Below the pieces are notes generated by a model. The model was not told the origin of the DNA. It made no database searches and worked only from the letters and a program-made list of their open reading frames with translations. A stretch of DNA of 33,372 nt, from positions 1-33,372 of the forward strand of contig NZ_JAEMTF010000050.1 of NCBI RefSeq assembly GCF_016462415.1, in the 5' to 3' direction. Positions 1 to 31,272 of this stretch are shown here, piece after piece (position 1 is the first letter of the stretch; every line of letters begins with the position of its first letter). The translations under genes were made by a program, and so were the position numbers. This stretch comes from Williamsia sp. (lineage in GTDB: Bacteria > Actinomycetota > Actinomycetes > Mycobacteriales > Mycobacteriaceae).

Positions 1-22
1 CGCCCACCCCGCCCGCCGACCA

Positions 23-718
23 CTACTTAGCCCCCACTTCGAGTTCGAGGCACAGCCGCTGCACGTCTTCGCGAGCTTGCAGCGCCACTCGGCTGGAGCC
101 GTATTCGGTGACGACCCGACCTTCGGCTGCGGCGCGGGAGTGGACCTTGTAGTGCCGGACCACGGTGCGAGCCAACGGCCACCCGCGCGACCGGACAAAC
201 GCCTGCGTCTGCTCGAGATCCGACCGACCGTCTCGTGGATCCCAGTCATTGACCACCACCACGTACGGGATGCCCAACGGTTCGATCACTTTGGTGATCG
301 TGCGTGCGGTCGGGTCGAACGCCAACGGCTCGGGAACAATCGGAACGATCACCAGATCCGCCGACCCCAACACCGCGTCCAACGCGTAGCCGGTGCCACC
401 GTTGTCCGTCGCTCCCGGGGTGTCGCCGATCCACCCGGGAGTGTCGACAATGACGTGATCGATACCCGGCAGATGCCGCAGTCGACCGAGCATCCCGACG
501 TCGTCGTGGGCTTGGGCGATGCGGAATGGGAGATCGGCAACCCGGTCGGCCCACCACACCGCCGACCCTTGCGGATCGATCGACACCGCCAGCACCGGCG
601 ACACCTCCCCCTCCCCTGCCGGATCGGTGAGGACGTCTGCCTTTACCGCGGCGAGGTTCATCGCCAGCGTCGATTTACCGACCCCACCCTTTTGATTCAT
701 CACCACATGCACACCCAT
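23..718 (-). CDS. ParA-family partition ATPase
   Basis: Deviant Walker-A ATPase of the ParA/MinD superfamily, which binds DNA non-specifically as an ATP dimer and segregates plasmids or integrated elements together with a ParB partner. The P-loop KGGVGKST lies within the first 20 residues, followed by a Walker A'-like segment (SIDPQG) and a Walker B-like segment (HVIVDTPG). At 231 residues it is the short form without an N-terminal DNA-binding domain, as found on plasmids and integrative elements. I chose the ATG at 718 because a purine-rich GGTGGAG lies just upstream; an in-frame ATG 13 codons earlier has no such support. The gene reads out of the window, so a ParB-like partner could follow beyond position 1. 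It lies next to a tRNA-Pro attachment scar, which fits carriage on an integrative element. Confidence 0.9.
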   Translation of the reverse strand: MGVHVVMNQKGGVGKSTLAMNLAAVKADVLTDPAGEGEVSPVLAVSIDPQGSAVWWADRVADLPFRIAQAHDDVGMLGRLRHLPGIDHVIVDTPGWIGDTPGATDNGGTGYALDAVLGSADLVIVPIVPEPLAFDPTARTITKVIEPLGIPYVVVVNDWDPRDGRSDLEQTQAFVRSRGWPLARTVVRHYKVHSRAAAEGRVVTEYGSSRVALQAREDVQRLCLELEVGAK

Positions 719-1031
719 TTTCTCCACCTCTCCGATCCGTCCGTAAATGCCTGTCATCCCGCGCAGTGCGGCGCCGGTGTTTACCGCGGTAAACCAGGCC
801 GCTCGGCGGGCCCCGGGCAGACGCTGTGCACGAGGAGACGTCGATCGAATACGGTTGCTTGAGAGCAGGTTCTAATTGCGAGAAATCAAGAGCTGGGGAA
901 ATACGCCCAGTCCGCAGACAGTCCGCAGCAGCACCGAAAGGGGCCATCACCGGCAAACACCCACAACGCCGCTCACCAGCAGAAACAGTGAATCCGCAAC
1001 TGCGTCAACAACACCAAACTCCCAGGTGCGC
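719..1031. other. Non-coding leader between parA and the attachment site
   Basis: No credible gene was seen here. It holds the promoter side of the ParA gene, a 16-bp palindrome, and a pair of 10-bp direct repeats (CAGTCCGCAG at 908-917 and 919-928). A third copy of the repeat lies at 1172-1181, on the other side of the tRNA fragment. The stretch is somewhat less GC-rich than the coding regions. Confidence 0.6.
779..794. promoter_or_regulatory. Perfect 16-bp palindrome upstream of parA
   Basis: GTTTACCGCGGTAAAC is a perfect palindrome about 60 bp upstream of the ParA start codon. It does not resemble the chromosomal parS consensus. It could be the operator through which the partition system represses itself, a centromere-like site, or a site for another element-encoded regulator. 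The role is inferred; the symmetry is seen directly. Confidence 0.6.
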
Positions 1032-1076
1032 TCGTTCGGGACGAAGAGGTCGTGGGTTCGAATCCCGCCACCCCGA
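1032..1076 (+). other. tRNA-Pro 3' fragment, probable att site of an integrative element
   Basis: This matches the 3' half of a bacterial tRNA-Pro: anticodon loop TTCGGGA with putative anticodon CGG, a 3' anticodon strand, a T-arm with loop TTCGAAT at 1057-1063 closed by GTGGG/CCCGC, then acceptor strand CACCCCG and discriminator A. Upstream of about 1032 the anticodon stem no longer pairs, and there is no D-arm or 5' acceptor strand, so the gene is incomplete. A 3' tRNA copy of this kind is left at the distal end when an element integrates into a tRNA gene. pSAM2 of Streptomyces is a known case in a tRNA-Pro. The intact tRNA should lie beyond the left edge. Confidence 0.85.
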
Positions 1077-1100
1077 CGTGTTGGTTGAGACACAGAAGAG

Positions 1101-1129
1101 GCCCTGACCAGGGGAAACCCGGTCGGGGC
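1101..1129 (+). terminator. Hairpin terminator behind the tRNA-Pro fragment
   Basis: The arms GCCCTGACC (1101-1109) and GGTCGGGGC (1121-1129) form a 9-bp stem with one G-U pair around an 11-nt loop, followed by TTCCTCGTTTC. GC-rich hairpins 20-30 bp behind a tRNA are common in actinobacteria. Its presence supports the view that DNA to the right of 1076 is the original chromosomal downstream flank of the tRNA gene. Confidence 0.7.
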
Positions 1130-1135
1130 TTCCTC

Positions 1136-1684
1136 GTTTCCGGAGTCATCTCAAACTGTCGCCAGTCCCCCCAGTCCGCAGGAGAAAAACTCCGGCCGCA
1201 TTCTGGCGCCAGATCAGGGCTCAGTGGGCGGTTGGCTGTCATGGCCAGGTGTTGAACACCGTTGACAGCGTGTGCGTCCGCGCCCGTGACTGCTGTGCAT
1301 TCTTCGCGTCCACCTAAGAGGTCGCGCCGGGTCGGAGTCGCGCTGACAAGCGGCCGCTGACAGATCGGCGTTGGCCTGGGATGAAAACTCTCCACGCTGC
1401 TTGCCGCCGGATTAATCGGGTACTACGGGGGCATTTGAAGCTCGACCCACCCGCGGTGGATAACTCAGGGCGGGCTAGCCGGTGGTTCCTTCATGTGAAT
1501 GTGGTCGCCCGGTACAGACCCAGCTGAGGACACCTGTTCGTGGTCCCGCGAGGACCACTGTTGCTGGGGCATACCCACACACCGTCGTCAGGAGCCACTG
1601 TTGGTGACGGCGCACTGCGGTCGCGGAGAGTCGGCTGATCGTAGGTCGGTTGCAGTGGTGGTTCACCAATGAAGGGAAGAGGTT
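1136..1684. other. Intergenic region, no gene recognised
   Basis: Open frames here are antisense or chance extensions across the tRNA fragment and the following gene. The stretch contains a perfect inverted repeat GTGGTCC-cgcga-GGACCAC at 1540-1558 that could be a hairpin or an operator for the downstream SDR-like gene. It also has a third copy of the CAGTCCGCAG repeat at 1172-1181. No tRNA, transposase remnant or CRISPR-like structure was seen. Confidence 0.6.
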
Positions 1685-2464
1685 ATGAGCGGGTTGGCTG
1701 TTGTTACGGGTGCGTCTTCGGGAATTGGTCGGGAGTACGCCCGACGTTTGGCCGCGCGTGGGACAGATTTGATCGTGGTCGGGCGTCGCGAGGAAAGACT
1801 TCGAGATCTGGCGTCCGAATTTCCCGCCGTCGAGGTGCACACGGTTGTTGCCGATTTGTCCACCAGTGACGGCATCGGTCGCGTGATCGCAGCAGTGGGC
1901 ACCCAGCCCGTGACGGTGCTGATCAACAACGCAGGCGTGGCCCACTACAAGGCGTTCACGGACCTCCCCGACGAGCAGGCCGCGGAGTTGGTGGGCGTGA
2001 AAGTACTTGCCCCGACACTTTTAACCCGCGCAGTCGCGCCGGGCATGGTCGCTCGTGGCTCGGGGCAGATCGTCAACGTCGCGGGCATGATCGCCTTCAG
2101 CGGCCCAGCCACACTCGAGCAGGTTCCACTTCGTCGTGCGGTCTATGCGTCCGGGCTGGCGTACGCCCTCACCCTTTCGCAGACGTTGCACGCCGAACTC
2201 TCGAGAAGCGGTGTGAGCGTTCAGGTCCTGTGCCCCGGCGTCGTCGCGACAGAGTTTCACGAACGCCAAGGACTCGACCTGTCAGCCACGCCCCGGATGA
2301 GCGCGGCTGACGTGGTGACCGCGAGCCTTCGTGGCATCGAGCTGGGTGAACTGGTCACCGCGCCAGGGGTCGAGCACGCAGAGCTGCTCGCCGACGTGTT
2401 CAACGCGGATCTCGCCGCGTTCGGTGGGCAAGCACCGGTACTGGCATCGCGCTACCGCGGCTGA
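1685..2464 (+). CDS. SDR-fold protein lacking most catalytic residues
   Basis: Short-chain dehydrogenase/reductase fold protein of 259 residues, a normal length for classical SDRs. The NAD(P)-binding motif TGASSGIG is at residues 8-15 and NNAG at 81-84. The active site is degenerate. Tyr154 remains, but the Lys expected four residues later is Leu158, the structural Asn region reads GVKV (Lys106), and the catalytic Ser position falls in VNVAGM with no Ser. A short insertion lies before Tyr154. The fold can probably bind a nucleotide but may not do standard SDR chemistry. The start has a good GGGAAGAGG ribosome site. The next gene follows after 44 bp, so the two are probably co-transcribed. Confidence 0.88.
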   Translation: MSGLAVVTGASSGIGREYARRLAARGTDLIVVGRREERLRDLASEFPAVEVHTVVADLSTSDGIGRVIAAVGTQPVTVLINNAGVAHYKAFTDLPDEQAAELVGVKVLAPTLLTRAVAPGMVARGSGQIVNVAGMIAFSGPATLEQVPLRRAVYASGLAYALTLSQTLHAELSRSGVSVQVLCPGVVATEFHERQGLDLSATPRMSAADVVTASLRGIELGELVTAPGVEHAELLADVFNADLAAFGGQAPVLASRYRG

Positions 2465-2508
2465 ACCACACACAGACCGGGCGTGACGACATCCACGAAG
2501 GAGACACC

Positions 2509-3366
2509 GTGACGACAGCAGGAACTCAAACTCCGGAACAGCCCATCAAAGAAGTCGGGTTCATCGGTCTCGGCGATCAAGGTCTGCCGATGGCCAGGGC
2601 GATTGCCGAGCAGGGTTACACCCTTCATGTCTGGGCTCGTCGTCCGTCGGCGATTGCACTCGAGCGGACGCCGCACACTGTTCACGCCTCGATCGCATCT
2701 CTTGGAGCGGCTTCTGACATTGTCGCACTGTGCGTCGGCACCGACCAGGACGTTTTGCAGCTCGTCGACGGTGGTCTGCTCGGCGCGCTTCGTCCAGGCA
2801 GCCTGGTGATCAATCACGGCACCGGAACCCCGAAGAACGCCCGCCAGATGTTCGACCTGTGCGCGAGTTACGGGGTCGTCATGGTCGACGCGCCGGTCAG
2901 TGGTGGACGACCGGCGGCCGAAGCGCGTGCACTGGTCGTCCTTGCCGGTGGTCCAGATGCTGCCGTGGCCACCGCAGCGCCTGTTTTCGAGTGCTTCGCG
3001 ACGGTGGTGGCGCACGTCGGGGGCGCAGGAGCCGGCCAGCTCGCGAAGCTTTTCAACAACGCGTTGCTGATGATGAACCAAGCGGCGATCGCCGACATCA
3101 TGGAGCTCGCCGGTCAGGCAGGTTTCGCGCCGGGCCCGCTGGTCGACGCACTTCGAGCAGGGTCTGCCGACAGTCGCGCGCTGAGCCTGATGAATACAAT
3201 GGTCAATCCCGACACCGTCGGTCACCTCTCCACCGTCGAAGCCCTCGAGATGGACCTGTTCCAACAGGCAATGACTGATGCCGGCGTGGAAGCGACGGAA
3301 GCCACGGCTCGTGGTCTCTCGGGCGCCCGCCGGCTGGGGGACGTCATTGGTTGGCTCAACCACTGA
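2509..3366 (+). CDS. 3-hydroxyisobutyrate dehydrogenase-family NAD(P)-dependent oxidoreductase
   Basis: Member of the beta-hydroxyacid dehydrogenase family (HIBADH, tartronate semialdehyde reductase, GLYR-like). These enzymes oxidise a 3-hydroxyacid or reduce the matching semialdehyde with NAD(P). The dinucleotide motif GFIGLGDQG spans residues 17-25, the substrate-binding signature DAPVSGG 127-133, and the catalytic Lys lies in GAGQLAKLFNN (Lys180, with Asn184), so the active site looks intact. The length of 285 residues is typical. The start is GTG with GAAGGAG upstream. It probably forms an operon with the preceding SDR-fold gene and converges on an XRE regulator. The exact substrate cannot be read from the sequence. 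Confidence 0.9.
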   Translation: MTTAGTQTPEQPIKEVGFIGLGDQGLPMARAIAEQGYTLHVWARRPSAIALERTPHTVHASIASLGAASDIVALCVGTDQDVLQLVDGGLLGALRPGSLVINHGTGTPKNARQMFDLCASYGVVMVDAPVSGGRPAAEARALVVLAGGPDAAVATAAPVFECFATVVAHVGGAGAGQLAKLFNNALLMMNQAAIADIMELAGQAGFAPGPLVDALRAGSADSRALSLMNTMVNPDTVGHLSTVEALEMDLFQQAMTDAGVEATEATARGLSGARRLGDVIGWLNH

Positions 3367-7176: not shown

Positions 7177-7299
7177 TGTCTACCCGCCCGGGTGCGCGCG
7201 GCATCAAATGCCACGACAGGGTCTTGCTCAACGCCCCTTCCACAAGTGGGTGGTGGTCAGGGCGTCGTCACGAGGGGACGCCGGAGGGTACCGTGCCGC

Positions 7300-7866
7300 T
7301 CACGACAGGTCGATGGCCGCGAGCGAGGCGTCCACGTCCTGCGCGCCCAGCACCGCGCTGCGGACGATGTAGCCCTGACAGAAGGTGAGCATTGCCAGCG
7401 CCGTGGCCGGCGCAGTTGCAGGCTCACGTCCCTCGGCGATGAGCCAGCGTTCGGCGGCAGCGGCGAACGCGCGCTCGATGTCGCTCATCCGACGCTGCAC
7501 GATCTCCCGCATCGTGGCGTCAAAGGCCGCCTCGCCCCAGAATTGCACCACGGTCGCGAACGGGATGCCGGCCTGCTCCAGGCCGACCAGCCACCGCCGG
7601 ACGACGTCGCGCGGGGAACGTGCCGGCTCGTCGTCCGGCATGGCGAGCAGGCTGAGCCGCTTCCCGATCACCTCGGCCGCGACCAGCTCGATCAGCTCGT
7701 CCTTACGCGCGAAGTGGGAGTAGACCGAACCGGCGGACAGTCCGGCCTCCTCGATGATGTCGGCCATCGTCAGGTTGTTCAGCGCTCGCCGACGCAACAC
7801 GCGCAGGGCCGCAGCGACGATCTCATCCCGACGCGCTTGGCGATACGCGTCACTGACTCGAGGCAT
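7300..7866 (-). CDS. TetR-family transcriptional regulator
   Basis: A 188-residue TetR-type regulator with an N-terminal helix-turn-helix (LTMADIIEEAGLSAGSVYSHFARKDEL, about residues 32-56) and an all-helical C-terminal domain. It is divergent from the gene for a multi-pass ABC-2-like membrane protein, with 64 bp between the starts. The space holds two inverted repeats, which suggests that it represses itself and the membrane protein. TetR control of a membrane export component is a common arrangement. The inducing ligand is unknown. Confidence 0.92.
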   Translation of the reverse strand: MPRVSDAYRQARRDEIVAAALRVLRRRALNNLTMADIIEEAGLSAGSVYSHFARKDELIELVAAEVIGKRLSLLAMPDDEPARSPRDVVRRWLVGLEQAGIPFATVVQFWGEAAFDATMREIVQRRMSDIERAFAAAAERWLIAEGREPATAPATALAMLTFCQGYIVRSAVLGAQDVDASLAAIDLS

Positions 7867-7873
7867 ACGACGA

Positions 7874-7917
7874 AGCCTAACCTAGGCTACTCTCCAAACA
7901 GAACCGTCATTCTGTTT
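7874..7917. promoter_or_regulatory. Two adjacent inverted repeats between tetR and the membrane protein gene
   Basis: AGCCTA-acc-TAGGCT lies at 7874-7888 and AAACAGAA-ccgtca-TTCTGTTT at 7896-7917. Both are perfect. The first sits just before the TetR start and overlaps -10-like sequence; the second lies about 13 bp before the ATG of the membrane protein. They are probable operators for the adjacent TetR protein, or one for each gene. Confidence 0.72.
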
Positions 7918-7930
7918 AGGGAGCACTGCC

Positions 7931-8914
7931 ATGAGTAACACCACCATCGATCGCACCCGTCCCACTGTCGCCGTCGGTTTCGGAGTCGTCGCCGGCCTCG
8001 TCGTCGCGCTCGTGGTCCTGGCCTTCCTCTGGCCCATTGCCACCTCTGAGCCGCGCGACCTCCCGGTAGGCGTCGTCGGCGCGGCGCTTCCACAGGGGGT
8101 CGAGCTACCGGTTGACGCCACGTCCTACAACACCCGCGCCGACGCAATCCAGGCAATCAAGGAGCGAAAGGTGTACGGCGCCTACATACTCGACCAGGCC
8201 GCGCCGGAGGTGTTGATCGCCGGGGCCGGCTTGGCGTCAGGCACCGCGGTCATCGAGAAGGTCGGCGCCCAGCTGACCGCCACGCAGGGAAAGCCCCCGA
8301 CCGTCACCGACGTGGTCCCACTCTCCTCAGGCGATCCGACCGGAACCGGGCTCGGCGCAATGGGGTTCCCGCTGGTCCTGGGCGGCATCGTCGGCGGCGT
8401 CCTGGTCTCGTCACTCGTCACCGGCCTGAGGCGCAGACTCCTGGCCCTCGGCGTCTACGGCGTCGCCGCCGGCCTCCTTGCCGCCGTGGTGACCGGACCC
8501 GTGCTCGGCATCGTCGCGGGCTCTTTCTGGGCGGACGCCGTGGTCCTCGGGGTCGCGATGCTCGGCACCGCCTCGACTGTCGTGGGCCTCAACGCCCTGC
8601 TCGGTGCAGCGGGTACCGGCGTGGGCGCTGCCATCACGATGCTGCTCGCGAACCCGATCTCAGGTGGGGCCACGCCGCACCAGTTCATCACCGGCCCCTG
8701 GGGCGAGATCGGCCAGTACTTCGTCCCCGGCGCCTCGCAGAGCCTCTTCCGTGAGGTCAACTACTTCCCCGATGCATCGACCCTGCACGAGTGGCTCGTC
8801 CTGATCGCCTGGATCCTCGGCGGCGTAACTCTTTCGGTCGCCGCCCATTTCCGGAGCTCGACACCGGTGGACGTCCCCGTCGACGAGCGCGAGGAGGCGC
8901 CCAGCGTCGCCTGA
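7931..8914 (+). CDS. ABC-2 / YhgE-Pip-like multi-pass membrane protein
   Basis: A 327-residue membrane protein. One transmembrane helix at about 15-37 is followed by an extracytoplasmic domain of about 100 residues. At least four further helices follow (about 145-167, 172-197, 200-224, 228-246), with a last one near 285-308 and a charged acidic tail. This topology matches ABC-2-type permease-like proteins of the YhgE/Pip or DUF3533 kind, which take part in export of lipids or drugs. No ATPase gene lies beside it, so if it works in a transporter the partner is elsewhere or not needed. RBS-like GGGAG precedes the ATG. It is likely controlled by the divergent TetR regulator. Confidence 0.75.
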   Translation: MSNTTIDRTRPTVAVGFGVVAGLVVALVVLAFLWPIATSEPRDLPVGVVGAALPQGVELPVDATSYNTRADAIQAIKERKVYGAYILDQAAPEVLIAGAGLASGTAVIEKVGAQLTATQGKPPTVTDVVPLSSGDPTGTGLGAMGFPLVLGGIVGGVLVSSLVTGLRRRLLALGVYGVAAGLLAAVVTGPVLGIVAGSFWADAVVLGVAMLGTASTVVGLNALLGAAGTGVGAAITMLLANPISGGATPHQFITGPWGEIGQYFVPGASQSLFREVNYFPDASTLHEWLVLIAWILGGVTLSVAAHFRSSTPVDVPVDEREEAPSVA

Positions 8915-8952
8915 CGGCTGCCGCGACGTTTCCGGTGAGGGCTTCGCGGGTT

Positions 8953-9387
8953 TCAGTCGACCGTGTCCCCGCACAGAACGTCCAGGCTCTCCAGCACGAG
9001 CCGAATCCTGTCCGGGCTCAGAAGGCGGAGTCGCCGACCCAGAACAGGTGTGATTCGCGCCCCGATGTCATCGGTCGTCTGCACACCGTGATCGGTCAGT
9101 CGGATCCGCGACCGGCGCGAGTCCGCGAGATCGATCTCCCGAGTCACCAGGCCCGAGTCGGCAAGCTTGGACAGTGCCCTGCTGAGAACGGACGGGTTGA
9201 GACCGAGGTCGCTCACGAGATCACCCGGACTGTCGACGCCCATCTTGACCGTGCGCAGCACCAGGAAATCCACGAGGTCCAGGTGCGCGGCGGCAGCGAC
9301 GTGCACCCGGGCGTCGGCCACGACCAACTTGTTCAGTCGGTAGAGCGCATCGAGCAGCTGCAGCTCGGGGGTGTCGGTGTCAGCCAT
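8953..9387 (-). CDS. MarR-family transcriptional regulator
   Basis: A 144-residue winged-helix regulator of the MarR type. The recognition helix region DLGLNPSVLSRALSKLADSGLVTREID is followed by the wing DSRRSRIRLTDHG, and the terminal helices form the dimer interface. No Shine-Dalgarno sequence precedes the ATG, so the message may have a very short leader. The gene is divergent from the amidohydrolase gene with 62 bp between the starts and an inverted repeat between them. MarR proteins in such places usually respond to aromatic acids or phenols. Confidence 0.92.
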   Translation of the reverse strand: MADTDTPELQLLDALYRLNKLVVADARVHVAAAAHLDLVDFLVLRTVKMGVDSPGDLVSDLGLNPSVLSRALSKLADSGLVTREIDLADSRRSRIRLTDHGVQTTDDIGARITPVLGRRLRLLSPDRIRLVLESLDVLCGDTVD

Positions 9388-9413
9388 GGGAGAAATCTAA
9401 CATCGGATGATTA

Positions 9414-9427
9414 TTGACATACGTCAA
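9414..9427. promoter_or_regulatory. Inverted repeat between marR and the amidohydrolase gene
   Basis: TTGAC-atac-GTCAA is symmetrical and overlaps a -35-like TTGACA on one strand and TTGACG on the other. It is a good candidate for the binding site of the adjacent MarR protein. The TTG at 9414 could be read as a start codon in frame with the amidohydrolase, but its place in this operator argues against that. Confidence 0.6.
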
Positions 9428-9449
9428 CTATTGCGAGTTGGGTGTGGGT

Positions 9450-10454
9450 ATGAATGATGACAGTGCCACCACACCCGGCCGAATCGATTTTCACCACCAC
9501 TTCATGCCGACCACCATGCTCACCTCGGGTTTGTTCGGCGACACCGCCGGCTGGAAATTCCGCGACGGGGACGCGTGGACACCGCAGGTCAGTGTGGACT
9601 TCATGGATCGCCTGCAGATCGACACCGCGATCCTGTCCGTGCCCAACGATGTGGAGGCACGACTGCCGGAGAACAAGCGTCATCATTTCGCTCGCGAGGT
9701 GAACACCTTGTCCCGTCAGGCCGCGGACGACCACCCCGGACGCTTCGGGCTGTTCGCGCATCTACCGACCCCGACGGACACCGACGCCGCACTCGAGGAA
9801 CTGACCTATGCATTCGACGTGCTGGGAGCCGACGGCGTCACCCTGACCAACGTCTACGGCACCGGTGATGAGGCCCGATCCCTGGGCGACCCGATCTTCG
9901 AGCCACTGTGGGCTGAGCTCGATCGCCGCAACGCGCTGGTGTTCCTGCACGGCGAGCAGACGCCCGGCAGCAATCGGGCCCCGAGCAAGTTCTTACCCAC
10001 CCCGATCAGTGAGACCCCGAACGAGACCTACAAAGGCGCAGCCGATCTGGTGACCAGCGGGCGCAAGCGGCAGTACCCGAACGTGCGGATCATCCTCGCC
10101 CATTCGGGCGGCAGCACACCCTATCTGGCCGCCCGCGTCGCCGCTCTGTGCGCGTTCCATCTCGACTGCGAACTGACCGCAGACGAGATACTCGCCGACT
10201 TCCAGACCTTCTACTACGAAACCGCCCTGTCAGGATTCGAGACGAATCTGGTGGCGCTCGAGAACTTCGTCGACCCGAGCCACATCCTGTTCGGCACCGA
10301 CTTCCCTGCCGCCAACCCGCGCACCGCCGGCTGGTTCACCGACAACGTCGACGAGTACTTTGCGACCCGTCCCGCGATGCTCGCGAAAGTCATGCACGAC
10401 AACGCATACAGTCTCGTACCCCGGCTGACCGCCGCAGCCCCCGCGCACCGGTGA
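9450..10454 (+). CDS. Amidohydrolase-family (ACMSD / gamma-resorcylate decarboxylase-like) metalloenzyme
   Basis: A 334-residue TIM-barrel metalloenzyme of the amidohydrolase-2 group. That group includes 2-amino-3-carboxymuconate semialdehyde decarboxylase, resorcylate decarboxylases and related lactonases. The metal motif HxH is at residues 15-17 (DFHHHFMP). Further conserved segments are VFLHGEQ, ILAHSGG (metal-binding His) and LFGTDFP with the catalytic Asp. All metal ligands appear present. The likely reaction is decarboxylation or hydrolysis of an aromatic acid or its ring-cleavage product. I chose the ATG at 9450; earlier in-frame codons lie in the operator. The divergent MarR gene probably controls it. 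Confidence 0.88.
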   Translation: MNDDSATTPGRIDFHHHFMPTTMLTSGLFGDTAGWKFRDGDAWTPQVSVDFMDRLQIDTAILSVPNDVEARLPENKRHHFAREVNTLSRQAADDHPGRFGLFAHLPTPTDTDAALEELTYAFDVLGADGVTLTNVYGTGDEARSLGDPIFEPLWAELDRRNALVFLHGEQTPGSNRAPSKFLPTPISETPNETYKGAADLVTSGRKRQYPNVRIILAHSGGSTPYLAARVAALCAFHLDCELTADEILADFQTFYYETALSGFETNLVALENFVDPSHILFGTDFPAANPRTAGWFTDNVDEYFATRPAMLAKVMHDNAYSLVPRLTAAAPAHR

Positions 10455-10476
10455 ACCTCGACAACCGGCCGAGCCG

Positions 10477-11136
10477 TCAGGTCAGCGCGGGGTAGCGGGG
10501 ATCGGCGTCGGAGCGTGCCTCGTACAGGTCGAAGTAGGTGGGAGCGATCTCGGCTGCCGACGTGCCGGGTTGACCGGATCCGATCCACACGATGATCGCG
10601 AGATGCGCTGCGTACACGCCGTGTTCCGAGAGCACGTTGTGCAGGTTGAGAACCCAGTTGCGCAAACCGGCGGAGGCGATGTTGATGTTCGCCATAGCCG
10701 GTGACGGGTCCACTGATCCACCTCCGGCGGTGATGATGATGGTGCCGGTTCTGGCGGCGATCATGTCGTCGACGACCTGCTTCACCACATGTATCGCACT
10801 GAAGTAGAAGTCGAGCTGTGGCTGAAGATTAGCCGGCGTGACCTCCAGGACGCCGGCGACGGGCAAACTGGTGTCGGCCGCGGAAAACTCGAGAACATCG
10901 ACGGTTCCCAAGGTTTCACGGATCTGGGCGAACGCCGCGGTGATCGACTCCGCATCGAGCAGATCAGCGGGGAAGGCAGTCGCGGCGATCCCCTCGCCGT
11001 TGAGCACGTCGGTGAGGGAATCCAGCTTCGCCCGATCACGGGCGACGAGCGCGACGGTGAAACCGTTTCGACCGAACACGCGGGCGATCTCCAGCCCCAT
11101 CCCTGGCCCGGCACCGACTATGACAATCAACGACAC
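10477..11136 (-). CDS. Atypical SDR-fold protein without the Tyr-Lys active site
   Basis: A 219-residue Rossmann-fold protein of the SDR superfamily. The cofactor motif is GAGPGMG (residues 8-14) and the second strand ends in ARD. The usual NNAG is replaced by EFSAAD (83-88). The catalytic region, ITAGGGSVDPSPAMANINIASAGLRNW, has no Tyr-x-x-x-Lys: the two positions are taken by Asn/Ile and Ser/Ala. It may bind NAD(P) but cannot do the usual proton relay. It is divergent from an HxlR regulator with 99 bp between. Related proteins with a GAGPG motif occur in proteobacteria and actinobacteria with no known role. A sensor or binding function is possible. Confidence 0.85.
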   Translation of the reverse strand: MSLIVIVGAGPGMGLEIARVFGRNGFTVALVARDRAKLDSLTDVLNGEGIAATAFPADLLDAESITAAFAQIRETLGTVDVLEFSAADTSLPVAGVLEVTPANLQPQLDFYFSAIHVVKQVVDDMIAARTGTIIITAGGGSVDPSPAMANINIASAGLRNWVLNLHNVLSEHGVYAAHLAIIVWIGSGQPGTSAAEIAPTYFDLYEARSDADPRYPALT

Positions 11137-11235
11137 GTTCTCACCCCTGAATGGTTACTGTTTGTGTGCAACCACATCGTCTGTGTGTTTCACCGTCGCC
11201 ACAAGAAGGCACATTCGTGTTCGTGAGGAGCGCCC

Positions 11236-11655
11236 ATGTCCACCAGCGAGAACGCAACGCTCACAAACGACGCCGCCCTGCCCGGTCCGTGCGAGGGGTG
11301 GGGTGACGACGCCCCGTTGATCCGCAGCATCCTCGACCGTGTCGGAGACAAATGGGGCATTCTCGTGATCGCCGTTCTCCGCGACACCCCGATGCGATAC
11401 AAACAGTTGCACCGCAGCGTCCCCGGCATATCCCAGCGGATGCTCACCCTCACCCTGCGCCACCTCGAGCGCGACGGTCTCGTGACACGCACCGTCTACC
11501 CCGAGGTACCTCCGCGCGTCGACTACGCCCTGACCCACCTCGGCGTCTCGCTCCTCGAACACGTTCTGGGCCTCGCGATGTGGGCGTCAGAACACACCGA
11601 CGAGATCCATCACCACCGTGTCGCATTCGACCAGAGACAATCAGGGACAGCCTGA
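11236..11655 (+). CDS. HxlR-family transcriptional regulator
   Basis: A 139-residue winged-helix regulator of the HxlR type. The family core is clear: LDRVGDKWGILVIAVLRDTPMRYKQLHRSVPGISQRMLTLTLR, then LERDGLVTRTVYPEVPPRVDYALTHLG. The short N-terminal extension has a Cys (PGPCEGW), as in many members that sense electrophiles, oxidants or aldehydes through a conserved Cys; such a role is inferred here. RBS GAGGAGC precedes the ATG. The gene is divergent from the atypical SDR gene, its likely target. Confidence 0.92.
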   Translation: MSTSENATLTNDAALPGPCEGWGDDAPLIRSILDRVGDKWGILVIAVLRDTPMRYKQLHRSVPGISQRMLTLTLRHLERDGLVTRTVYPEVPPRVDYALTHLGVSLLEHVLGLAMWASEHTDEIHHHRVAFDQRQSGTA

Positions 11656-11789
11656 GAACGCTTCACCTGCAGGAAGAACAATCCGACAACGCCACTCGCA
11701 GCCGATAACGTCAGAAAGCTACGCGCACCGGTGACGTATCGGGCCACCGATCTCATATGTACCTGTCACACCTCCACAGCGGTGATCGG

Positions 11790-28815: not shown

Positions 28816-29238
28816 CTACGTCGCGTGGTCACCACTCCGCGGCGATTTGCCGACCCCCACACCGCGCTGGGATCGTTGATGCGAATGCAATGAGCGCACC
28901 ACCGAGGACGTGTCGTCGACCGCCGCGGACCGACTGATGTCGACGCCGTCGCCCTCGTCATCGGCGGGCTGCGGGGTGCGTAGCGCGAAGACCGACGCCT
29001 GCTCGATCAGCCGCAGGGCCACCAATCCGGAGACGGCCACCACGCGTAGCGCCAGTCCGACCGGATTGGTCAGGGCGGACCGCAACGTTCGGTCAGGCGA
29101 GGTGGCCACGGACACCGGCGGCGCATGGCGCTGTGGTGGCACCACGGTCAACTGGACGGGACCGGATTGCTTGCGGCTCAACTCGATCTCGAGTCGGTTG
29201 AACCCGACGACCACCTTGAGTGAAAGCGGTACAGACAT
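28816..29238 (-). CDS. Hypothetical protein with one possible membrane helix
   Basis: A 140-residue protein starting at ATG 29238 with GAGGAGA upstream. The N-terminal region (MSVPLSLKVVVGFNRLEIELSR) is strand-like. A hydrophobic segment at about 62-78 (LALRVVAVSGLVALRLI) may be a membrane or amphipathic helix. The C-terminal third is charged and Ser-rich, ending in a basic stretch. No family is recognised. A much longer frame upstream of 29238 is unlikely to be coding. Confidence 0.5.
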   Translation of the reverse strand: MSVPLSLKVVVGFNRLEIELSRKQSGPVQLTVVPPQRHAPPVSVATSPDRTLRSALTNPVGLALRVVAVSGLVALRLIEQASVFALRTPQPADDEGDGVDISRSAAVDDTSSVVRSLHSHQRSQRGVGVGKSPRSGDHAT

Positions 29239-29684
29239 CGTCGATCTCCTCGGCAGAACCGCCTGGAGGCGAACTCGGACGCCGGACGCACCCAGCGATC
29301 TGCAGGTGTCGAATCCGGTGGGCTCGTGAGATGAGTTCGGTCGCAGGGAAACGTGTCGTGACATCTCGCCAACGGCAAGACAGACAAGAGCGCGGAAAAC
29401 CTTTGGGCGGCGGATGCTCCTCCGCGTCACGGCCGTCTCAGACAGCGGTGATTGCGGTCCCGGACCGGCTGACATGCTCAGCACCGTCACCCTACCCTGT
29501 CCGAGCGAGGGACGGTCGCGACGTGTGCCCGGACCCGGGTCCGATCGGTTGCCGCCTCCAGAACCACAGGTGGCGGTACCGTTGGCAACACAGTCCACCC
29601 CGTTGTGATGGCCGCGTTCATTGCTCGCGAGTTCACATGGGCAACACGGGGCCGGAGCAGTTCCGATGAGCAGGGTGACGTGGG
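29239..29684. other. Gap upstream of the first ANTAR gene
   Basis: No gene is supported in this 446-bp stretch. Open frames are short or antisense in nature. It should hold the promoter and leader of the GAF-ANTAR gene. I could not identify a clear dual-hairpin ANTAR target by eye. Confidence 0.45.
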
Positions 29685-30491
29685 ATGACCGAGTTGGACG
29701 ACGGCAGTGACAACGATCATCAGGGGGAGCCCCTCGGCTCGCAGGAGGCCGGTATGGCCGTCTCGGACCTGAACGCTGCGATCAGCGACCTGGCAGGCCT
29801 CGTTGCAGACAGCCACGACCTGCCTGGCCTCCTGGCGGAGGTCGCGGCGTTCGCCGTGCAGGCGATACCCGGTGCCGAGGGCGCCGGAGTCACCCTGCTC
29901 CGAGTGGATCGGCCCGAGAACATCGTCGAAACCCTCGCTGCGAGTTCATTGTTGGTTGAGGAGATCGATCACATCCAGTACGTCACGCTGCAGGAAGGCC
30001 CCTGTATCACCGCGGCGCTGGAACGACGAACCGTCCGCTCGGGCTCACTCGGCGGCGAGAAGATGTGGCCCCGATTCGGCCCACGAGTGGGCAGACTCGG
30101 AGTGCACAGCGCCCTGTCCCTGCCTCTGTTGCTGCCGGGCAAGGTGGTCGGCGCCATCAACGTCTACGCTCGCGAGAAGAACGCTTTCGACGAGCACGCC
30201 GAGCATCTCGGAGAACTGTTCGCCAAACCAGCGGCCGCCGCCGTTCACAACGCTCAAATCCTCTCTCAAGCGATGACACTGACGTCGCAGCTGCAGATGG
30301 CACTCTCATCGCGGCCGACAATTGATCAGGCGATCGGGCTGGTGCGCGGGCGATCCGGACTCAGCGCCGAGGAGGCCTTCGACCATCTGAGGGCCATCAG
30401 TCAGGCAGAGCATCGCAAGTTGTCCGCTGTCGCGCAACGCATCGTCGACGAGGCGGTCCGACGCGCGGTCGCCCGTCAGACCCCGCACTGA
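29685..30491 (+). CDS. GAF-ANTAR domain regulator
   Basis: A 268-residue protein with a GAF sensor domain (about 35-195: VTLLRVDRPENIVETLAASS, LQEGPCITAALERRTVR, LSLPLLLPGKVVGAINVYA) and a C-terminal ANTAR domain (about 200-260: MALSSRPTIDQAIGLVRGRSGLSAEEAFDHLR). ANTAR proteins bind paired RNA hairpins with hexanucleotide loops and prevent transcription termination. The GAF domain may sense a small ligand or redox state. Actinobacteria have many such proteins, some linked to dormancy or redox stress. A second ANTAR-domain gene lies 178 bp downstream on the same strand. ATG 29685 lacks a strong ribosome site. Confidence 0.9.
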   Translation: MTELDDGSDNDHQGEPLGSQEAGMAVSDLNAAISDLAGLVADSHDLPGLLAEVAAFAVQAIPGAEGAGVTLLRVDRPENIVETLAASSLLVEEIDHIQYVTLQEGPCITAALERRTVRSGSLGGEKMWPRFGPRVGRLGVHSALSLPLLLPGKVVGAINVYAREKNAFDEHAEHLGELFAKPAAAAVHNAQILSQAMTLTSQLQMALSSRPTIDQAIGLVRGRSGLSAEEAFDHLRAISQAEHRKLSAVAQRIVDEAVRRAVARQTPH

Positions 30492-30669
30492 GGCAATCGT
30501 CAGACGGCGGCGATACGCACGGGTTTCCGCGTACGGTCGACGAGGAAGCACACACCGGGAGACGGCACCTGACCCGATCCCCAGACCTCCACCGTGCACG
30601 GCGACTCGCCCTGGGCGGCCCCTGGCAGGCTCGATCGGCGCTCAGGAGCGTCAACGGAGCACGCACTCC

Positions 30670-31272
30670 ATGACCATCACCGAATCGCTGGCGACCGCAT
30701 TGGCCACACTGACCCAGGCGCTCGATCAACCCGGCGCCGACATTGCAGTCGGCCTCGATCGATTGACCGCGGACGCTGCGGCCTCGATACCGAGCTACAA
30801 GGGGCTCAGTATCATTGTTTCCCAATCGGAACCACCCTTTGCCGTCACGGTTCTGGCCAGTGGCAACCAACCCGGCGAGATCCGCACATCGCTCCGCTTC
30901 ACGATTCGCGCCGAGGGTGGCGGTCACGAACATCCACCCGTTGATCTCATCTTCTACGGCGGTTCGCCGGGCACCTTCGTCGATCTGGCGGCTGACATCG
31001 CCTGGCTCACGAACCAGCCGTTGGATGCCCTGACGCTCGACGAGCACCTGACCGTCACGGCCGCATCCGATATCGCCACCCAGCTCGATGCCGCTTCGGA
31101 GATCAACCAGGCAATCGGCGTCCTCATCGGACGCGGGCTGACCCCTCACGAGGCGGTTCTGCGACTCGAGCAGATCGTCGGCGACAACGCCACTGACCGA
31201 CACGGCGCCGCTCGAATCGTTCTGGACACGATGGTGTCTCGATCGCCCCCATGGGATCAGACGTCGATGTGA
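30670..31272 (+). CDS. ANTAR-domain protein with unknown N-terminal domain
   Basis: A 200-residue protein. The C-terminal ANTAR domain (about 138-190: LDAASEINQAIGVLIGRGLTPHEAVLRLEQIVGDNATDR) is shorter than usual. The N-terminal ~130 residues (GLSIIVSQSEPPFAVTVLASG, DLIFYGGSPGTFVDLAADIAWL) form an alpha/beta domain not recognised as GAF. An RNA-binding antitermination role is likely from the ANTAR part; the trigger is unknown. GGAG lies 10 nt before the ATG. It follows the GAF-ANTAR gene. Confidence 0.85.
   Translation: MTITESLATALATLTQALDQPGADIAVGLDRLTADAAASIPSYKGLSIIVSQSEPPFAVTVLASGNQPGEIRTSLRFTIRAEGGGHEHPPVDLIFYGGSPGTFVDLAADIAWLTNQPLDALTLDEHLTVTAASDIATQLDAASEINQAIGVLIGRGLTPHEAVLRLEQIVGDNATDRHGAARIVLDTMVSRSPPWDQTSM

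Follow-up and report, generated by a model that had tools for sequence, protein, structure and literature searches.

A parABS module beside a tRNA-Pro core in a Williamsia genome, a probable joint between stacked mobile elements

Near one end of a 33,372-nucleotide stretch of DNA from Williamsia, a soil actinobacterium, a ParA-type partition gene lies next to a 3′ piece of tRNA-Pro. We consider this arrangement to be probably a joint where two mobile elements are stacked at a single tRNA-Pro gene, with the left one ending in a parABS partition module and the right one starting with DNA that also follows the intact tRNA gene (the P′ flank), which in the analyzed stretch leads into catabolic and regulatory genes. 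The stretch, here called the window, makes up the whole of contig C164 in a draft assembly (G000; 4.95 Mb in 243 contigs). We compared it with a relative (G001), with further genus-mates (the set G002 to G007, in which G004 is Williamsia herbipolensis), with a genome of another genus (G022), and with plasmid records.

The attachment core is the last 46 nt of tRNA-Pro(CGG), at positions 1032-1077 on the plus strand, and was recognized by its identity to an intact tRNA-Pro(CGG) gene on contig C198 of the same genome (34015-34089, minus strand). A preliminary description of this DNA had given the 3′ fragment a length of 45 nt; the fragment is real, its length being 46 nt. The run identical to the intact copy is 84 nt long and ends at position 1115, and ARAGORN found no complete tRNA in the window. 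Directly behind the core lies a copy of the tRNA-Pro terminator hairpin (1078-1140, plus strand), identified by folding and by alignment of the flanks: the segment 1077-1140 folds at -36 kcal/mol (z -5.27), which none of 200 shuffles equaled, bearing out the earlier statement that the tRNA's own terminator follows the fragment. The hairpin is absent from the list of a simple terminator scan. Beyond the terminator, the window still resembles the intact tRNA locus as far as position 1323 (87% over 292 bp, core included), and the resulting P′ flank (1078-1323, plus strand), common to the DNA after the intact tRNA-Pro, is also present in the G001 and G004 copies.

A tRNA-targeting element is marked by an intact tRNA gene on one side and a repeat of its 3′ piece on the opposite side. 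Both are found here, on separate contigs in G000 and, in G001, with the intact gene leftward on the same contig; the intact tRNA-Pro(CGG) that the preliminary description had proposed to look for thus exists, and its idea of integration at tRNA-Pro is supported. Contigs C198 and C164, together with a third contig discussed below (C73), are separate in the draft assembly, with no physical join. A direct step from CCGAC to GTGTTGGTTGAG, considered as a mark of the element, was rejected: 19, 20 and 38 extra nucleotides lie between the two motifs in G002, G006 and G003, respectively, and the genome of the other genus (G022) is also free of them, so that the direct step may be ancestral. Within the P′ flank, positions 1249-1317 hold a short, cysteine-containing, leader-like frame, VLNTVDSVCVRARDCCAFFAST, that has the same end in five of the seven P′ flank copies examined, while the DNA after each copy differs; it is possibly the relic of an attenuator peptide. 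Scans found no sigma-70-type promoter in 700-1700 and no Rfam match in 1-3000 at E-values up to 0.1.

Repeats of AGTCCGCA stand on both sides of the core. Two of them (909-927, plus strand) lie at -123 and -112 from the core and are probable left (P) arm integrase sites, and one (1173-1180, plus strand) lies at +95 and is a probable right (P′) arm site. The left pair occupies the same positions in all five Williamsia modules compared (the window, three in G001 and one in G004), with a mismatch in one of the ten sites. On the right, repeats occur at +84 to +105 of the tRNA flank, two each in G000, G001, G004 and G005 and one in G007. A paired AGTCCGCA repeat was found twice in 760,000 strand-bases (19 stretches), and both occurrences are the tRNA flanks of G000 and G001. 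By analogy with known tyrosine integrases, the repeats are probably the arm-type sites of the integrase. Judged from its sequence, the window is laid out as left arm, core and right arm, as in an attP site, and it is because AGTCCGCA flanks the core on both sides and the 292 bp also follow the intact tRNA that we read it as an attP-like joint of stacked elements.

The preliminary description had taken the fragment for the right end, or distal junction, of an integrative element. It would then be the attR of a single element, with host chromosome to its right, a reading that we consider quite unlikely. After the fragment come a right arm repeat and the 292-bp flank, as they do after the intact tRNA and at the G001 joints, and the genomes without the family marks (G002, G003 and G006) have no right repeats at their tRNA flanks; for the former reason the identity as a distal junction was dropped. 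Two features speak for it nonetheless. The window's right-hand repeat at +86, directly before the exact one at +95, is a degenerate copy, AGTCCCCC, and a 4.4-kb block further to the right (7299-11661) is 95.2% identical to DNA of G001 (C1:474267-478628) that lies 3.7 kb right of the last joint there, so that this match could be a shared chromosomal flank. The same block exceeds in identity the DNA upstream of tRNA-Pro in this genome pair (91-92%), which raises the question of whether it was recently exchanged. A hint that the right side of the window belongs instead to a related element, as in a joint of stacked elements, comes from a block with an ANTAR-domain regulator (by Pfam) at 28868-31223 (plus strand), which is a second copy (79.6% over 2,365 bp) of a block found on C198 at 1.3-3.7 kb downstream from the intact tRNA.

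The stacked arrangement can be followed on one contig in G001. Its tRNA-Pro lies at C1:372.8 kb and three tRNA fragments follow at 444.5, 458.0 and 470.3 kb of the same 2.99-Mb contig, a span of 98 kb in which parA, parB and the palindrome described below lie to the left of each fragment. This matches the composition of an accretion array of cis-mobilizable elements, several integrase-less units bounded by attachment sites at one locus: in the 105-kb stretch holding the tRNA and the three cores, tblastn found no integrase of the family present in G004. Pfam scans of 30 proteins of this stretch (from 109 picked ORFs) showed two ParB proteins, a cargo made up chiefly of catabolic, transport and regulatory proteins, and one IS481 transposase. 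Right of the last G001 joint there is one repeat (+85). The same holds for the tRNA flank of G007, a genome with neither the parA nor an integrase of the G004 family, so that a lone right repeat proves little. Immediately to the right of the second G001 joint, the DNA is similar to that which directly follows tRNA-Pro in G007, so some of the stretches between cores may not be elements. In a search for the native right flank, G002 and G006 proved collinear in the DNA downstream of tRNA-Pro. The related DNA of G001 is about 1.2 Mb distant and not beside the array; in G003 it lies 12.6 kb from the tRNA, in G005 another contig starts with it, and in G000, G004 and G007 it is on contigs other than that of the tRNA.

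The partition genes occupy the extreme left of the window. An intact parA (23-757, minus strand; Pfam CbiA/AAA_31) encodes a protein of 244 aa with KGGVGKST, a deviant Walker A motif, and with sequence matches to ParA, ParF and Soj chains of known structure. The first seven codons of parB follow (1-22, minus strand), with a GTG start that overlaps the parA stop, as in the G001 parB, before the gene is cut by the contig end. Residues 69-290 of ParB appear at the start of the 3,711-bp contig C73, 83% identical to the G001 ParB, so that the parB of G000 is spread over two contigs; the gene is open in the four modules seen whole. HTH_ParB was detected in all four ParB frames scanned, including the C73 piece, and the second G001 ParB was assigned by sequence match alone. 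A ParA-type ATPase and, directly after it, a parB with a helix-turn-helix are therefore both present, and on the element side of the core, as the preliminary description had placed parA.

The four other Williamsia copies share 95-98% identity with the window parA, and dN/dS is 0.023-0.052 over the ten pairs among the five. The three G001 copies differ from one another by dS of 0.349, 0.433 and 0.651, like copies from different species (0.466-0.605), and so are not recent duplications; all Williamsia parA copies have been kept under purifying selection over that history. The table of these values was made without the Rhodococcus fascians ParA, for which the start motif gave no recovery, and a usable dS was absent in three of five Kitasatospora pairs. 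Against phages, ParA matched 106 records, every one below 60% identity. One contig of Kitasatospora arboriphila NRRL B-24581 (contig12.1, locus L055) carries parAB, its ParA being 79% identical, with four copies of the palindrome lying upstream of that gene; its neighboring genes look Mycobacteriales-like by eye, and this assembly is possibly contaminated.

Between parA and the core lies the palindrome GTTTACCGCGGTAAAC (779-794), a probable parS according to motif counts across genomes and plasmids; the preliminary description had rightly put a palindrome on the element side. Counts within the window lend it modest support (two 14-mer sites with at most three mismatches against 0.26 expected, a number that 3 of 100 shuffles reach), and the genome-wide counts are much stronger. 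Exact sites of TTTACCGCGGTAAA number one in G000, three in G001 and two in G004, the motif is absent from five genus-mates without this parA, and its reversed control occurs in none of eight genomes. For 18 homologues we also scanned the DNA upstream of parA to a distance of 900 bp; the set includes the close pairs L057/L058, L061/L063 and L062/L064 and leaves aside L066, whose upstream DNA is truncated at a contig end. Ten have the exact 14-mer (the G004 module, L054, among them), five have TTAACCGCGGTTAA, one has TATACCGCGGTATA, and two have none of these forms. One of the latter two, Prescottella pVAPN1572, carries six copies farther out, at 1.3-2.4 kb upstream. When whole records or genomes were searched, exact TTTACCGCGGTAAA turned up in 9 of 12, at 2-14 copies each, and the control in none of the 12. 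The motif clusters on Rhodococcus, Prescottella and Gordonia plasmids with related parAB. We conclude from these counts that TTTACCGCGGTAAA is a probable candidate parS, and on its motifs and gene order the window parA is assigned to a plasmid-type parABS. Elsewhere, contig C45 of G004 has a lone palindrome without parA (29077-29090), some 0.5 kb to the right of a partial core that lacks its 5′ part. R. aetherivorans pN1 (NZ_CP106984.1) holds 13 copies of TTTACCGCGGTAAA in 1.8 kb (41553-43391), far from its parAB at 209.6 kb, which has one TTTACCGCGGTAAA 0.6 kb upstream. Among the literature matches listed for the text of TTTACCGCGGTAAA there is one paper, which is on a fungus.

A ParA match was found on 708 plasmid records, and five of the best 20 were opened. 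Plasmids of Rhodococcus, Gordonia, Prescottella and Mycolicibacterium resemble the Williamsia module in their ParA (63-72% identity), in having parB next to it, and in carrying TTTACCGCGGTAAA (all five opened); they differ in having 2-14 palindromes, whereas the Williamsia modules have one each, fused to a tRNA-Pro core. The core itself matched 12 plasmid records, five of which were opened. The circular Rhodococcus qingshengii pDJL3 has the core, with repeats at -134 (one mismatch), -123, +58 and +69, and beside it an integrase 63% identical to the G004 enzyme over 419 alignment positions. It is thus alike in its tRNA-Pro core, in its repeats on both sides and in its related integrase, and unlike in being a 15.9-kb phage-like circle with annotated terminase and tape-measure genes and with no par gene annotated in the 10 kb that were read. 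Within 5 kb of the core, no par gene is annotated in Streptomyces pSITFR-21c, Tsukamurella 'plasmid 8' or Pseudarthrobacter pACHL01. In Tsukamurella 'plasmid 27' (L176, NZ_LR134469.1), GatB/YqeY and metallophosphoesterase genes adjoin the core, and this record is probably a mislabeled piece of chromosome.

The resemblance to pDJL3, in which both arms flank the core just as in the window, together with the plasmid type of the parABS and a window contig that is joined to no other, would also suit a free circle or plasmid bearing a true attP rather than a piece of chromosome. We regard this as very unlikely, given that in G001 the modules and the 4.4-kb right block lie behind tRNA-Pro within a 2.99-Mb contig.

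A candidate enzyme for the joint of stacked elements is encoded in G004, where a 414-aa tyrosine integrase gene lies directly downstream of tRNA-Pro, reads toward it, and shares 4 bp with the gene of a 640-aa AAA_25 protein that is RepA-like by eye; a TrwC relaxase gene follows about 13 kb beyond the integrase. In G005, a 54-residue integrase remnant is 70% identical to the G004 enzyme. No orthologue, and no cognate integrase within the element, was found in G000 (best match 41%, on contig C124) or in G001 (weak partial matches). The C124 integrase was rejected as the cognate enzyme on its 41% identity and because the 16 kb read there contain no AGTCCGCA; that contig begins with a tRNA-Val and has one 10-nt match to the core tail, without extension. 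TrwC is absent from G001, is represented in G000 by one partial match with a stop, and occurs once each in G002 and G004, near tRNA-Pro in G004 only, the partial G000 match lying elsewhere. Pfam scans of 30 window ORFs, chosen from the 131 that reach 100 aa, recognized no gene for an integrase, for replication or for FtsK-type transfer. The likening of the element to the pSAM2 type finds no support in these scanned ORFs, nor in the TrwC relaxase gene near the G004 integrase.

On the tRNA side of G000, ten proteins were scanned, two of them from C73, and they include stress-protein, two-component, nitroreductase and arginine-deiminase-pathway genes. The 34 kb downstream of tRNA-Pro on C198 (L141/L142) encode universal stress proteins, a GAF histidine kinase with a LuxR-type regulator, and a nitroreductase; C198 and C73 (L140) also hold genes for arginine deiminase, a carbamoyltransferase, a kinase, an NAD(P) transhydrogenase and a phosphoketolase, with C73 itself encoding a universal stress protein and the phosphoketolase. 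Judging from these annotations, the set resembles an island for low oxygen or dormancy that the tRNA-side element would carry.

The missing integrases bear on whether such arrays still move. They may be fossils, that is, immobile remnants whose parABS no longer serves mobility, and we rate this as possible but on the doubtful side. The lack of a cognate integrase in G000 and G001, the state of TrwC in the two genomes, and a scanned cargo that is mainly catabolic, transport and regulatory would all fit. Against it, parA is open in five of five modules and under strong purifying selection, although dN/dS reports history and not present activity, and parB is open in the four whole modules, with the palindrome and left repeats kept. 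The probabilities of the alternatives overlap with that of the stacked joint, because a stacked array may also be inactive.

If the stacked elements do move, a tyrosine integrase of the G004/pDJL3 family would recombine at the tRNA core. The integrase gene would read toward attL and parAB away from attR, so that in the excised circle, where the right end meets the left end, repA and int (each where present), attP, parS, parA and parB would all align in the same direction. In G000 and G001 the integrase would act in trans, from outside, or, in G000, may alternatively have been lost. The partition genes could then be expressed from the free element, as soj is reported to be in PAPI-1 (PMC4489591, PMC2704930), and ParABS would segregate the low-copy circle until reintegration. 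Segregation of an excised circle, which the preliminary description had suggested, is the role that we favor for ParABS. A bolder version, which we hold only tentatively and think unlikely, makes the parS-parA-parB module with its two-armed attachment site the conserved mobile unit, a portable centromere with a docking site. It would gather cargo at tRNA-Pro, be excised in trans by the integrase of a visiting integrative and conjugative element (ICE) or phage satellite, and be held as a segregating circle by its own ParABS, with parAB turned on once excision places it behind int.

Partition genes near attachment sites have precedents. In the ICEs of the PAPI-1, pKLC102 and ICEclc group, soj lies near the att end. 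Like the Williamsia units, these are tRNA-integrated elements with a ParA-type gene; they are proteobacterial, in contrast to the actinobacterial Williamsia units, which have a parB and a plasmid-type parS, use another integrase and are stacked at tRNA-Pro. The PAPI-1 reports describe loss of the element without soj and increased soj expression on excision (PMC4489591, PMC2704930), and with ICE-borne soj/ParA known from this group, the earlier remark that a ParA gene close to att is less usual needs tempering. The integrative element SGI1 is reported to be stabilized through the parABS of its IncC helper (PMC10954446); it has parS-like sites and depends on the helper's ParAB, whereas the Williamsia element brings its own parAB. 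Stacking also has actinobacterial parallels in the tandem actinobacterial integrative elements (AICEs) of Frankia (Fean5518/Fean5534) and Streptomyces avermitilis (Sav3708/Sav3728), each pair at one tRNA gene, and the Frankia elements are reported to excise singly and together (PMC3218068). AICEs have an att-tra-rep-int-att layout, unlike the G000 and G001 units, in whose scanned parts no such genes were recognized and which end in parABS. A literature search, with most subscription papers outside its scope, gave no report of a parABS/tRNA-Pro joint among the matches listed. The Williamsia joint is an actinobacterial variant of a known theme, that of integrated elements with a partition system, as with soj of PAPI-1.

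The joint would thus offer a concrete actinobacterial case of integrated elements that retain a plasmid partition system at a recombination joint. It also yields, in TTTACCGCGGTAAA, a specific parS candidate for a family of ParAB proteins that many Mycobacteriales plasmids carry. Should excision turn on parAB through their placement behind int, the layout itself would be the switch between an integrated and a plasmid-like state.
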